From assembly GCA_947454525.1 (NCBI GenBank), contig CANGJM010000010.1:62001-126000 (forward strand): a DNA stretch of 64,000 nucleotides. Reading direction: 5' to 3'. A program made the position numbers and the translations under genes. Below the pieces are notes generated by a model. It was not told where the DNA came from. It saw only the letters and a list, made by a program, of their open reading frames with translations, and did not search any database. This DNA comes from Flavobacteriales bacterium. Its GTDB lineage: Bacteria > Bacteroidota > Bacteroidia > Flavobacteriales_D > Crocinitomicaceae. Below, piece by piece: positions 50,356 to 55,899 of this stretch (positions within the stretch are counted from its first letter, which is position 1; each line of letters opens with the position of its first letter).

Positions 50356-50363
50356 TATTTTTG
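50356..50363 (+). promoter_or_regulatory. Promoter -7 box of the 84-nt array and tRNA
   Basis: TATTTTTG with TTTG at 50334-50337 (18 nt spacing). Initiation near 50370 would transcribe the three repeat units and the tRNA as one RNA, ending at the terminator at 50724-50752. Confidence 0.6.
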
Positions 50364-50391
50364 CCAACCGTTACAGTTAAGATTGTAACTC

Positions 50392-50643
50392 GGTCCTATA
50401 GCTTCCCGTAACGACGGGACAAGCAACTTCGCTATAGGACAACTAAGATGTTTAACCGTTACTTCAATGTAACTCGGTCCTATAGCTTCCCGTAACGACG
50501 GGACAAGCAACTTCGCTATAGGACAACTAAGATTTTTAATCGTTACTTCAATGTAACCCGGTCCTATAGCTTCCCGTAACGACGGGACAAGCAACTTCGC
50601 TATAGGACAACTAAGATTTTTAATCGTTACTTCAATGTAACCC
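50392..50643 (+). repeat. Three 84-nt tandem units in register with tRNA-Met
   Basis: Units at 50392-50475, 50476-50559 and 50560-50643 (last two identical; the first differs at three positions). Each starts GGTCCTATAGCT, the same as the first 12 nt of the tRNA at 50644, which sits exactly one period later. Within a unit, GTCCTATAGC and GCTATAGGAC are perfect inverted repeats (10 bp) around an inner hairpin CCCGT-AACG-ACGGG; a second small hairpin GTTAC...GTAAC separates units. No spacers, so not CRISPR. The whole could be a non-coding RNA, a tRNA-cluster remnant or a repeat built on the tRNA start. Confidence 0.85.
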
Positions 50644-50717
50644 GGTCCTATAGCTCAGTTGGTTAGAGCAACAGACTCATAATCTGTGGGTCCACAGTTC
50701 GAGCCTGTGTGGGACCA
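50644..50717 (+). tRNA. tRNA-Met (CAU anticodon, elongator type)
   Basis: Acceptor stem GGTCCTA/TGGGACC, D-loop AGTTGGTTAGA, anticodon stem ACAGA/TCTGT with loop CTCATAA (anticodon CAT), T stem CACAG/CTGTG with TTCGAGC. The first pair is G1-C72, so it is not the initiator. A tRNA-Ile2 reading (lysidine-modified CAU) is less likely from the overall sequence. CCA is not encoded (discriminator A then CCC). Confidence 0.93.
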
Positions 50718-50723
50718 CCCTTT

Positions 50724-50752
50724 AAAGCCTCTTTAATGAGGCTTTTTTTTTA
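50724..50752 (+). terminator. Rho-independent terminator of the tRNA transcript
   Basis: Stem AAAGCCTC / GAGGCTTT with loop TTTAAT, followed by a T tract, beginning 7 nt after the tRNA. Confidence 0.88.
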
Positions 50753-50828: not shown

Positions 50829-51137
50829 ATGATTGAAGAACTGTCAAATAAAATCGAAGCAATTGCAACCCTTTGTGAAACACATCAGGTGAAAACGATT
50901 GCTGTTTTTGGATCTGCGGCCCGAAATACCATGACACCTGAAAGTGACATCGATTTTCTTGTCCAATTCTCTGATGATATTGACGTACTCGACTTTGCCG
51001 ATAACTATTTTTCTTTGCTTGCATCATTAGAATCTTTAACAGGCAAAGCCATTGATTTAGTTTCGGTTAATTCATTGAAGAATCCTGTTTTAAAAGAAGA
51101 AATCGAAAAATCAAAAATTGAGCTTTATGCAGCATAA
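50829..51137 (+). CDS. mntA: MntA-like nucleotidyltransferase antitoxin
   Basis: 102 residues. Minimal nucleotidyltransferase: VFGSAARNTMTPESDIDFLV with GS at 28-29 and the metal-binding Asp40 and Asp42. Members of the MNT/HEPN type VII systems AMPylate the tyrosine of HepT and switch it off. The next gene begins within its last codons, the usual layout. Confidence 0.9.
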   Translation: MIEELSNKIEAIATLCETHQVKTIAVFGSAARNTMTPESDIDFLVQFSDDIDVLDFADNYFSLLASLESLTGKAIDLVSVNSLKNPVLKEEIEKSKIELYAA

Positions 51138-51465
51138 AGTTCTCAAATACATCCTTGATATTGAAAGTATTATTATCGAGATCGAATCGATAAAGAGAAG
51201 ACTCAATAATGACTTCAATCTTTTCTCTAAGGATATTATTATGCAAAGAGCAGTCGAAAGAGATCTTGAAATCATCGGGGAGGCCGTGCGAAAAATCAGT
51301 GAACTTCAACCAGACATTATTATCTCTTCATCCAAGAAAATTATTGGCTTACGAAACATCATTTCTCATGCCTATGATTCTATTGAACCTGCTTTAATTT
51401 GGGGAATTATTCAGAAAGACATTCCCATTTTGAGCGTAGAAATCCAAGATCTAAAAAACACTTGA
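51127..51465 (+). CDS. hepT: HepT-like HEPN ribonuclease toxin
   Basis: 112 residues from ATG 51127 (MQHKVLKYILDIE), overlapping the mntA end by 11 nt. All-helical HEPN (DUF86) fold. Catalytic motif RNIISHAYD: Arg76, His81 and Tyr83 (RX4HXY), where the Tyr is the known AMPylation site. Cleaves RNA when free of MntA. Ends 1 nt before the convergent GERSEIS remnant. Confidence 0.9.
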   Translation: MQHKVLKYILDIESIIIEIESIKRRLNNDFNLFSKDIIMQRAVERDLEIIGEAVRKISELQPDIIISSSKKIIGLRNIISHAYDSIEPALIWGIIQKDIPILSVEIQDLKNT

Positions 51466-51833: not shown

Positions 51834-52298
51834 ATGAAAAACACTAAGCAACAATTGCTCATACAGCAAACTGATAAGAAATTAGCGGTGTTTAAACCGT
51901 TAACGTCCAATGTTATCCCTGCAAAAGGATGGATAAACACCGTTCGAACCTCGTTGAAAATGTCTTTTCGGCAATTAGGAAATCGTTTAAAAATTTCTGC
52001 TCAAAGCGCTAAAGAAATAGAAGATCGCGAAGCAAATGGTACAATTACCATAAATGCTTTAAAAGATGCAGCAAATGCACTGGACTTGAAATTGGTATAT
52101 GGCTTTGTTGCTAAAAGTGGCAGCTTGGAACAAATGATTGATGATCGCGCGAAAGAAATAGCAACTGAAATTGTCATGAGGACCAATACCACGATGACCC
52201 TAGAAAATCAACAAAATTCAAAAGAGCGGATTGAACAAGCAATTGCGCAGAAAACATCGGAAATTAAATTTGACATGCCAAAATATTTATGGGATTAG
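51834..52298 (+). CDS. Mobile mystery protein A (Xre-type DNA-binding)
   Basis: 154 residues. A helix-turn-helix from about 40 to 85: TVRTSLKMSFRQLGNRLKIS followed by AQSAKEIEDREANGTITINA. C-terminal part to LVYGFVAKSG and beyond. Matches the pattern of the mobile mystery protein A family (TIGR02612), always followed by protein B. Probably a transcription regulator and antitoxin. Overlaps the Fic gene by 10 nt. Confidence 0.9.
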   Translation: MKNTKQQLLIQQTDKKLAVFKPLTSNVIPAKGWINTVRTSLKMSFRQLGNRLKISAQSAKEIEDREANGTITINALKDAANALDLKLVYGFVAKSGSLEQMIDDRAKEIATEIVMRTNTTMTLENQQNSKERIEQAIAQKTSEIKFDMPKYLWD

Positions 52299-52885
52299 AA
52301 ATCAATTATCTTGACGGTCAGACACCACTAAGCGAAGAAGAATTGGACGGATTAAAGATTCTATCAATTTCTACCCGCGAAGAGCTTGACGAGTTTGAGC
52401 AATTTAACATCGAAAAGGCCATTCAATGGACATTTGGTAAAAAAATCCAACCCAAAGATTTGCTTTCTGAGAAGTTCATCAAAGATTTACATAAAAGAAT
52501 GTACGGTGAGGTTTGGAAGTGGGCCGGTTCTTTCAGAACATCCGAAAAGAATTTAGGGATTAAAAGTTACCTGATTCCAGTTCAGCTCAAACAATTATTA
52601 GATGATGCAATGTATTGGTATGAAAACCAGATCTATTCGCCAGACGAAGTTGCGGTCAGATTCAAGCATCAACTCGTGAGTATTCATTGCTTTGCCAATG
52701 GCAACGGTAGGCACTCTCGCTTAATGGCAGATTTGATTATGGAAAAACTTTACAAGGAACCTTTCCTCCCATGGGGTGGTTCGAGTTTAGTGAAATCAAA
52801 CGAAAAAAGAAAAGAATACATCAATGCCATTAAAATAGCTGATCGTCAAGACTTAAGCCAACTCATTATGTTTGCAAAATCCTAA
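52289..52885 (+). CDS. Mobile mystery protein B (Fic domain)
   Basis: 198 residues. Fic motif IHCFANGNGRHSR at 132-144. His133 is the catalytic His; the usual acidic residue before GNGR is Asn138 here and Pro is replaced by Cys134, a pattern seen in this family. Fic proteins transfer AMP or related groups from a nucleotide to hydroxyl groups of proteins. With protein A it forms a toxin-antitoxin-like pair found on mobile elements (TIGR02613). Confidence 0.9.
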   Translation: MGLEINYLDGQTPLSEEELDGLKILSISTREELDEFEQFNIEKAIQWTFGKKIQPKDLLSEKFIKDLHKRMYGEVWKWAGSFRTSEKNLGIKSYLIPVQLKQLLDDAMYWYENQIYSPDEVAVRFKHQLVSIHCFANGNGRHSRLMADLIMEKLYKEPFLPWGGSSLVKSNEKRKEYINAIKIADRQDLSQLIMFAKS

Positions 52886-54634: not shown

Positions 54635-54725
54635 GAGCGAGTCCGCCGCGGCGGAGAGAGCGTAGAGCGCACTAGTCACTGTTCACTAGTCACTAGGCAC
54701 TAGTCCCTGTTCACTAGTCACTGAT
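54635..54725. repeat. GAGCG-rich stretch and heptamer repeat, copy 2
   Basis: AGAGCGAGTCCGCCGCGGCG then GAGAGAGCGTAGAGCGCACT and 7-nt units CACTAGT, CACTGTT, CACTAGG up to about 54722. It lies between the two flanking genes of the T9SS and ATPase. Confidence 0.75.
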
Positions 54726-54735
54726 CCCCAATAAC

Positions 54736-55860
54736 TCAATCGTTCTGTCGAACAAATTCCCGGAAATTCTCTTTGTCAATGACGTGTCCAATCGCGTTGT
54801 AATCTCTCAAGAAGACCGCAGGAATTTTCGCTTTTCCTTTGCTTTGCCATTTAAATTCATACGCGGTAATTTGTCCGTTGGAATCTTCCACGTAATCTAT
54901 TTCTTGTTTTTGAACTGTACGCCAGAAATAATTCGTCGAATATAGTTGATTATACTCCTGACGTTTGATTCGTTCAGAAATTAAAAAATTTTCCCATAAA
55001 GCCCCTTTGTCCGTGCGCAAATCTAATGGATTCAGGTTATTGATGATCATATTCCGAATGCCATTATCGTAAAAATAAATCTTCCGGTTATTTTTAATTT
55101 CATTCCGCTGATTGCGACTAAAACTGTTTAAGCGAAAGACGATGAACGATTTCTCTAAAAGATCAATGTACTTGGACACCGTAACTTTGTCAATTTGCAG
55201 CAAATTGGACAATTCGTTATACGATACTTCATTTCCTATTTGCAATGCTAGAGCCTTTAGAAGTTTGTCTAACAATTCTGGTTTTTTAATCCCTGTTAAG
55301 GAAAGAACATCTTTGTATAAATAGCTCGAGGTTAATTGCTTTAACACATCCCGTGCTTCGGATCGATGATTCAAAATATCGGGATACATTCCATAAATCA
55401 ACCGTTCCTCTAATTGTGCACTCGCCTCAACAAATCCAACATGATTTTCAAATTCTTCCCAACTTATCGGAAATAACTGGTATTCATATTTTCTACCAGT
55501 TAATGGCTCTTGTGTGGAATGACTTATTTCCAAAGAAGAAGATCCACTTAAGATTAACTGTACTTCTTTAAATTGATCCGTAATCATCTTCGCAATAAGT
55601 CCAATTTCCTTAATCCGCTGAGATTCATCTATAAAAACAATGTGATGCTTTCCAATGATGGAACGCAATTTTGAAACTCCAGCATTCTCTAATAAATCTC
55701 TATCCACTGGATCATCTCCGTTCAAAAAAAGAAACTCCTTTCCGTTCAAACATGCATGAATCAAAGTGGTTTTACCCACTTGACGAGGACCCAATAATAC
55801 AATTGCTTTCCCCTTGAAAAACTTTGTATTTAGTGTGTTAAATAAATCTCTTTCAATCAT
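54736..55860 (-). CDS. AAA/DUF4143-family ATPase
   Basis: 374 residues from ATG 55860 (MIERDLFNTLNTKFFKGKAI); a TTG at 55869 lies inside the -7 box. Walker A GPRQVGKTT (24-32), Walker B IVFIDESQ, a helical winged region with GNEVSYNELSNLLQIDKVTV, and a C-terminal restriction-like domain with EIDYVEDSNGQITAYEFKWQ (Asp/Glu and Lys as in PD-(D/E)XK). Role not known; members often lie in mobile or defence islands. Opposite orientation to the related gene at 57197. Confidence 0.88.
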   Translation of the reverse strand: MIERDLFNTLNTKFFKGKAIVLLGPRQVGKTTLIHACLNGKEFLFLNGDDPVDRDLLENAGVSKLRSIIGKHHIVFIDESQRIKEIGLIAKMITDQFKEVQLILSGSSSLEISHSTQEPLTGRKYEYQLFPISWEEFENHVGFVEASAQLEERLIYGMYPDILNHRSEARDVLKQLTSSYLYKDVLSLTGIKKPELLDKLLKALALQIGNEVSYNELSNLLQIDKVTVSKYIDLLEKSFIVFRLNSFSRNQRNEIKNNRKIYFYDNGIRNMIINNLNPLDLRTDKGALWENFLISERIKRQEYNQLYSTNYFWRTVQKQEIDYVEDSNGQITAYEFKWQSKGKAKIPAVFLRDYNAIGHVIDKENFREFVRQND

Positions 55861-55866
55861 AATCAC

Positions 55867-55899
55867 CAAATATAGTATTTTTTTAGTGATTTAAATCAC
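55867..55899 (-). promoter_or_regulatory. Promoter and palindromic operator of the 54736-55860 gene
   Basis: Minus-strand -7 box TATATTTG (55867-55874), 6 nt before the ATG (near-leaderless), with the perfect palindrome GTGATTTAAATCAC at 55886-55899 just upstream; its half-site TTGGTGATT recurs at the start codon. Looks like self-regulation. Confidence 0.55.

Follow-up and report, generated by a model that had tools for sequence, protein, structure and literature searches.

Small palindromic units that copy a tRNA end lie beside tRNA genes in many lineages of one bacterial class

Why should a bacterial tRNA gene be preceded by a row of near-identical hairpins, each of which begins like the tRNA itself? 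The question is raised by a 64,000-nt stretch of DNA from a Flavobacteriales bacterium (family Crocinitomicaceae; assembly GCA_947454525.1, contig CANGJM010000010.1, positions 62,001 to 126,000), which we call the window. In it, three 84-nt units and a tRNA-Met gene share one register, with spacings of 84, 84 and 84 nt, exactly as a previous sequence-only reading of the locus had stated (Table 1). Each unit opens with GGTCCTATAGCT, which is identical to tRNA nt 1-12, and further on has GCTATAGGAC, which is exactly complementary to tRNA nt 2-11; both features had been claimed, and both are exact in every unit. The order within a Met unit is the GGTCCTATAGCT copy, an inner hairpin TCCCGTAACGACGGGA, CAAGCAACTTC, the right arm GCTATAGGAC, a spacer and a leader hairpin. 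The direct repeat is 104 nt long, its copies being 100, 97 and 96% identical to the reference copy. The GTTAC...GTAAC hairpins described as separating the units stand 5' of the units and of the tRNA, and the proposed enclosing elements lie where they had been placed. We take TATTTTTG to be a putative -7 box, the Bacteroidota -7 motif being TAnnTTTG, and the sequence of the tRNA-Met(CAT) suggests that it is of the elongator type.

Table 1. Features of the tRNA-Met locus, in window coordinates
Feature	Position	Strand	Basis
-7 promoter-like box TATTTTTG, 5' of the whole array	50356..50363	+	sequence; kept in orthologous loci with one and with no units
First leader hairpin GTTACAGTTAAGATTGTAAC	50370..50389	+	50368-50392 folds at -6.7 kcal/mol, equalled by 2 of 200 shuffles
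Unit 1	50392..50475	+	copy of tRNA nt 1-12 (50392-50403), inner hairpin (50404-50419), right arm GCTATAGGAC (50431-50440), spacer, leader hairpin; covariance model match
Unit 2, anatomy as unit 1	50476..50559	+	sequence, repeat, fold, covariance model match
Unit 3, anatomy as unit 1; leader hairpin ends 2 bases 5' of the tRNA	50560..50643	+	covariance model match
tRNA-Met(CAT), intact, taken to be elongator-type	50644..50719	+	ARAGORN; Rfam RF00005, 68.6 bits
Intrinsic terminator-like stem with T run	50724..50745	+	one found against 0.3 expected

Taken individually, the Met units fold at -27.1 to -27.4 kcal/mol (z -4.8 to -4.9; equalled by 0 of 200 shuffles), and the fold of the whole array region is similarly exceptional (z -9.5; 0 of 100 shuffles). 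The suggested long hairpin per unit thus holds for each unit alone, but equilibrium prediction pairs the units with the tRNA instead of leaving separate hairpins. At gathering score, Rfam finds the tRNA as the sole family in the window, the units matching no known structured RNA family, and ARAGORN does not report them there either. The stretches between the repeats are near-identical and not the differing spacers of a CRISPR array. Within the window, the 84-nt units leave no coding room, and no integrase element lies between the partial and the full tRNA.

Just 3' of the tRNA, 50829-51465 encodes a nucleotidyltransferase (NTP_transf_2) followed by a HepT-like ribonuclease, a pair that resembles a toxin-antitoxin system of the MntA-HepT type. 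At 51834-52885, a small ORF without a Pfam match, perhaps an antitoxin by its position, overlaps the start of a Fic/DOC-domain protein, and 54736-55869 on the minus strand encodes an AAA_14/DUF4143 ATPase.

The number of units varies at the same locus among members of one genus: three in the window, one in genome G015 and none in G002, whose contig stops at the last base of the tRNA. The -7 box is kept irrespective of unit number, as are the last leader hairpin and the end of the upstream gene, which in the window encodes a Band_7/SPFH protein. Many other members of the genus lack units altogether, and the rest carry one to three or more, sometimes at contig ends; a genome of another genus (G324) has at least four. 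A second tRNA-Met start, 67-97 nt 5' of the real one, occurs in 20 of 399 genomes of the order. Fifteen of these belong to the window's genus and four to another genus of the family. The remaining genome (G042), from another family of the order, has a different 82-nt unit, GGTCCTAAAGCTCATTGG...GGCTAGGGCC, before its tRNA-Met (L035/L056), without the usual core. Absence from close relatives, with random drift of the sequence, had been named as grounds for dropping the idea; many relatives do lack units, but the carriers share a conserved core, and the objection as a whole does not apply.

This core, approximately TTCCCG-hairpin-CGGGACARGC-NN-YTTCGC, directly follows tRNA nt 12. Searching the genome_contigs collection (84,980 species) for its exact pattern, with tRNA nt 7-12 included as ATAGCT, returned 32 stretches, some of the records apparently being the same genomes as the G-labelled ones. 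A tRNA adjoins 23 of them (22 Met and one Ala-GGC) and two are arrays cut by a contig end, while the other seven are isolated, come from other taxa and look like chance. A covariance model built from 19 units (R1) matched 36 of 200 genomes of the family, in all of which at least one match has a tRNA within 520 nt downstream. It also matched 21 of 395 genomes of the class: 15 at a tRNA (three only in mirrored form) and six, all weak, elsewhere. The link to tRNA-Met that the first reading had drawn was too narrow, as units of this kind stand on the 5' side of Met, Ala, His, Gly (GCC, TCC), Arg (TCT, TCG, ACG, CCT), Val-GAC and Lys tRNAs, with a disrupted tRNA copy between unit and tRNA in the Arg-CCT case. 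Mirrored 3' forms occur at His, Lys, Leu, Gln and Met tRNAs, and one tRNA-Met has both forms.

Proximity to a tRNA follows match strength. Across 38 genomes, mostly picked for having units and with tandem units counted singly, 40 of the 42 matches with E≤1e-5 lie 5' of a same-strand tRNA within 520 nt, and the other two belong to an array cut by a contig end. Between E 1e-5 and 0.01, 23 of 25 are at a tRNA, 19 on the 5' side and four mirrored at the 3' end; one exception ends in a tRNA start and then N, and the other looks like chance. Above E 0.01, just six of 21 are at a tRNA. Counted as distinct loci, 45 of the 48 at E≤0.01 have a tRNA. Context was placed for 88 of the 95 matches listed, the other seven all having E>0.29. 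A looser core pattern gave 30 matches in 25 of the 395 class genomes, eight of them known units; the other 22 about equal the count for the reversed control, so they cannot serve as an unbiased sample. Unit size is approximately 55-115 nt, and 3' half-copies lie up to some 225 nt away. The tRNA-Met array of the window is therefore not a local oddity, and the phenomenon is wider than a single sequence could reveal. Our searches of open PMC papers, including portions of PMC3733652, PMC2267715 and PMC9897764, turned up no description of hairpin units that copy a tRNA end.

Other inserts and palindromes were also seen. Two loci (L133, L208) hold copies of tRNA-Gly and tRNA-Arg(CCT) whose D-loop is interrupted by other inserts; an intact tRNA follows at some distance downstream. 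Palindromes that share the CGGGACAGGC tail and give weak model matches lie away from tRNAs in G324 (L194-L196) and G383 (L201, L204-L206), several of them nested in larger CCCC...GGGG or AATCCC...GGGGAT palindromes.

The outer parts of the units follow the tRNA at which they stand. We chose 39 representatives, one for each combination of genus, tRNA and tRNA start. Their left copy agrees with nt 1-12 of the host tRNA at 12 of 12 positions in 33 and at 11 or more in 38. Between the right arm and host nt 2-7, 3.26 of 6 positions pair, compared to 1.88 with shuffled hosts (0 of 5000 shuffles), and 2.81 compared to 1.86 (0 of 5000) in the 27 non-Met representatives, in a test that is biased towards arms because model R1 rewards paired arms. 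The arm-finding rule mis-anchors five of 61 units, which stayed pooled, and finds no arm in one. Several units have little or no arm, including many at Gly, some at Ala and those at the initiator tRNA. Among units found by anchoring on the tRNA, which are free of the model's bias, the Met arm of G287 is full and its His and two Arg arms are partial, while the Gly unit of G287 and the Arg-TCT and initiator units of the window's genome (G000) have little or no arm. Strong arms thus characterize some lineages and are no general trait. Of the positions that distinguish the left copy from the tRNA, the arm agrees with the tRNA at nine, with the left copy at four (three of them from one unit, in G475) and with neither at two. 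The arms thus cannot be called compensated, and we rejected the notion that drifted units keep their stems by compensation.

The tRNA-anchored survey took 63 distinct tRNA sequences from G000 and G287 and looked for the first 11 nt of each upstream, or its last ~15 nt downstream, up to 400 nt away and allowing a single mismatch; presumed real tandem tRNAs (Thr, Glu) were left out. By our own arithmetic, chance would give about 0.2 matches on the 5' side for 63 tRNAs. The survey found half-copies at ten tRNAs of G287, five 5' and five 3'. In the window's genome, they occur at tRNA-Met, tRNA-Arg(TCT) and the initiator tRNA (5' and 3'), so the genome-wide search that had been suggested added two tRNAs to the original one. 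At tRNA-Arg(TCT), two contig ends carry three 70-nt units each. These ends probably belong together, which would make an array of at least five units, because one unit could be shared between them. The Arg-TCT and initiator units carry the palindrome TCCGCCSCGGCGGA and, unlike the Met units, fold no better than shuffled sequences (z 0.1 to -1.3). G020, a member of the genus without model matches, has no 5' half-copies among 33 tRNAs surveyed; it has 3' half-copies at three tRNAs, with other inserts. Those inserts (L332, L333, L356) share words like TCCACTGCACGT and constitute a different insert family at tRNA 3' ends.

Several features suggest that the units are themselves built on a tRNA plan. 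The initiator units keep tRNA nt 1-12 and about 20-43 (to approximately the end of the anticodon arm) around a D-loop palindrome, and the Arg-TCT units also look tRNA-derived. Of the options raised by the first reading, tRNA copies with replaced interiors thus comes closest. Following the inner hairpin is a conserved ARGC(AA) that looks like the 3' strand of a tRNA D-stem (GAGC + AA), and GCTT...ARGC can pair as a D-stem. A unit may accordingly be read as acceptor stem plus D-arm, with the hairpin as D-loop and without anticodon and T arms; such a reading would account for the nt 12/13 junction and agrees with the initiator units, in which more of the tRNA remains.

Taking together the anatomy, the host matching, the junction, the variation in copy number and the occurrence at many tRNAs and in many lineages, all of which can be read from the sequences, we see about an even chance that the units are small palindromic inserts that enter tRNA genes, spare the tRNA and amplify in tandem within the pre-tRNA transcript. 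A non-coding palindromic element would enter the D-arm, its core coming to lie right after nt 12, at GCT^C, and the tRNA would survive because its first 12 nt are duplicated and a full tRNA follows the insert. The mirrored form would insert from the other strand into the T-loop, with duplication of the tRNA 3' end. The right arm of many units would pair with the additional tRNA 5' end and so enclose it in a hairpin. Tandem arrays would then arise as repeated tRNA starts and leaders recombine unequally. Lying between the putative promoter and the tRNA, an array would be part of the pre-tRNA 5' leader, from which RNase P would remove it. Compared by eye, the leaders mostly mismatch beyond the tRNA, which argues against an ordinary target-site duplication.

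Evidence on whether the inserts move is mixed. In G287, an identical 37-nt core precedes Arg-TCG and Arg-ACG, although gene conversion could account for it. Core likeness is 0.68 within a genome and 0.58 between genera (2 of 2000 label shuffles), but it is 0.675 for relatives in the genus, that is, for other genomes and other tRNAs, so the comparison does not separate lineage from movement. RAYT/Y1 transposases are not supported as movers: Y1_Tnp matches are found in 32 of 47 genomes, with similar frequency in those with units (19 of 27) and without (13 of 20), and the unit core pattern is absent from all 20 Y1/RAYT loci, which by eye carry other palindromes. The Y1/RAYT-type genes examined offer no transposase or integrase that can be linked to the units. 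A single unit lies near such a gene, ~0.4 kb beyond a Y1 match in G743, on the 3' side of tRNA-Gln, and it is too divergent for the core pattern.

In favor of inserts, the palindrome TCCGCCSCGGCGGA is also scattered elsewhere, with 31 forward and 32 reverse matches in the window's genome, 23 and 23 in G015, 10 and 10 in G002, and one or two in six more of 30 genomes; in these counts, self-complementary copies score on both strands and units are included. One dispersed copy in the window, the perfect 14-nt palindrome TCCGCCGCGGCGGA at 54642-54655, lies beside GCGAGA- and TAGTCACT-like simple repeats. Dispersed copies often sit within tracts of short tandem words (e.g., gctaatgt), many per contig (L361-L368: C16, C22 and others of G000; C12 of G015).

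A wider reading, to which we give somewhat less than even credence, is that the units form a class-wide tRNA-parasitic family tailored to its host gene. By bringing the host's own nt 1-12 (or 3' end) and often the complement, such an element would let a foreign hairpin sit in the pre-tRNA, and some lineages may have turned it into a switch for the acceptor stem. The host-matched arm could protect the extra 5' end or serve as a switch.

The second role leads to the alternative that the units are a functional tRNA-linked RNA with two exclusive folds, the unit either closing on itself or capturing both acceptor strands with its arms, and so tuning tRNA maturation or acting as a decoy for a processing enzyme. 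Equilibrium folding of one unit plus tRNA predicts a swapped structure at -62.8 kcal/mol versus -49.8 kcal/mol for unit hairpin plus cloverleaf, figures that are a rough guide because even for the tRNA by itself the program does not rank a cloverleaf best. The mean probability of the native acceptor pairs drops from 0.993 for the tRNA alone to 0.0 with the unit; shuffling the left copy gives 0.001 and shuffling the right arm 0.03, so the arm does not decide the outcome in this model. Such folding also leaves aside kinetics, modification and proteins, and the swap could be avoided during transcription, when the unit would be the first to close. A functional RNA is in keeping with the host-matched arms of many lineages and with stem covariation in 19 units, where four pairs changed on both sides (0 of 500 shuffles), though further pair types gave 41 of 500. 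Arms are also not seen around dispersed palindromes: the flanks of 34 TCCGCCGCGGCGGA copies, excluding those at locus edges and in initiator-tRNA units, are not inverted repeats beyond chance (mean 0.91 versus 0.78; 1548 of 5000 shuffles). We therefore rejected arms as a general by-product of palindrome insertion, a result that favors a role at the RNA level, although TCCGCCGCGGCGGA differs from the core of the Met units. What makes a functional RNA rather improbable to us is its patchiness: the two-start Met pattern is confined to the 20 genomes of the order described above, one with an unlike unit, close relatives manage without units, copy number is erratic, hosts vary by lineage and some units are armless.

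Neutral decay of tandem tRNA duplications is an unlikely alternative. Here the interiors of tRNA copies would have been lost and palindromes gained through replication slippage or quasi-palindrome correction, with gene conversion keeping nt 1-12. The tRNA segments retained by the initiator units speak for such decay, as do arms that agree with the tRNA more often than with the left copy. It is hard to see independent decay giving rise to a common core at many tRNAs and in many families, to a constant junction after nt 12, to mirrored forms at tRNA 3' ends and to a core shared without change by two tRNA-Arg genes of one genome.

The 3' forms, with their break in the T-loop and second copy of the tRNA 3' end, recall the scars or satellites of integrative elements with tRNA attachment sites, as do the half-copies with other inserts in G020. 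According to PMC9897764, a partial tRNA beside a full one is a usual trace of integration. We nonetheless consider this origin very improbable: units of ~55-115 nt leave no room for genes, the 5' form duplicates nt 1-12, and neither viral contigs (core pattern) nor phage and plasmid records (blastn with the array) contained a match, which leaves a phage, plasmid or viral origin without support. The earlier suggestion of decoys or antisense elements acting on an invading integrase gained no positive support from these searches, nor from the copied piece, which is usually nt 1-12, attachment of integrating elements being usual at the 3' end of a tRNA. That the arrays are assembly artefacts is hardly credible, since similar arrays occur in many separate assemblies and far from contig ends (contig position 112392 of 128395 for the window; G015), even though several lie at contig ends.

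Genes for tRNAs are classic landing sites of mobile DNA. Here, very small, tRNA-matched inserts are found at both tRNA ends in many lineages of one class. If they move, they would do so by a tRNA-targeting mechanism not known before; if they are kept for a function, they would constitute a cis control of tRNA maturation not known before. The swapped-fold prediction and the comparison with empty sites make either reading testable. The arrays also seem to break draft assemblies beside tRNAs.

Several known systems resemble the units in part. MITEs are small and non-autonomous and duplicate their target. The units are likewise small, with a seemingly duplicated target, but we saw no terminal inverted repeats of their own, we know of no autonomous partner, and the target copy is defined by the tRNA, being exact over nt 1-12 in the 33 representatives mentioned above and mostly mismatched by eye in the flanks outside. 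Rickettsia palindromic elements are small palindromes that invade genes and leave them working; they come from another phylum and, to our knowledge, do not copy tRNA ends as the units do. T-boxes and other tRNA-linked cis RNAs are RNA elements that can pair with tRNA, as unit RNA could, whereas the units lie 5' of the tRNA in what appears to be its own transcript and have no Rfam match besides the tRNA at gathering score; T-boxes, like integron attC sites, were considered and set aside. With integrative elements (PMC9897764), the units have in common a partial copy beside a full tRNA and, in the 3' form, a break in the T-loop; they differ in being tiny, tandem 5' copies of nt 1-12 with a complementary arm and no integrase seen. 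REP/RAYT palindromes, which are GTAG- and CGTC-tagged (PMC3733652), are short, non-coding and repeated within a genome, as the units are. The units differ from them in having an outer stem matched to the host tRNA and a core that lies almost only at tRNAs and is missing from the 20 Y1/RAYT loci. The letters GTAG occur where the tRNA itself has G7-T8-A9-G10; Met units have ATAG (or TTAG) and Val units TTAG.
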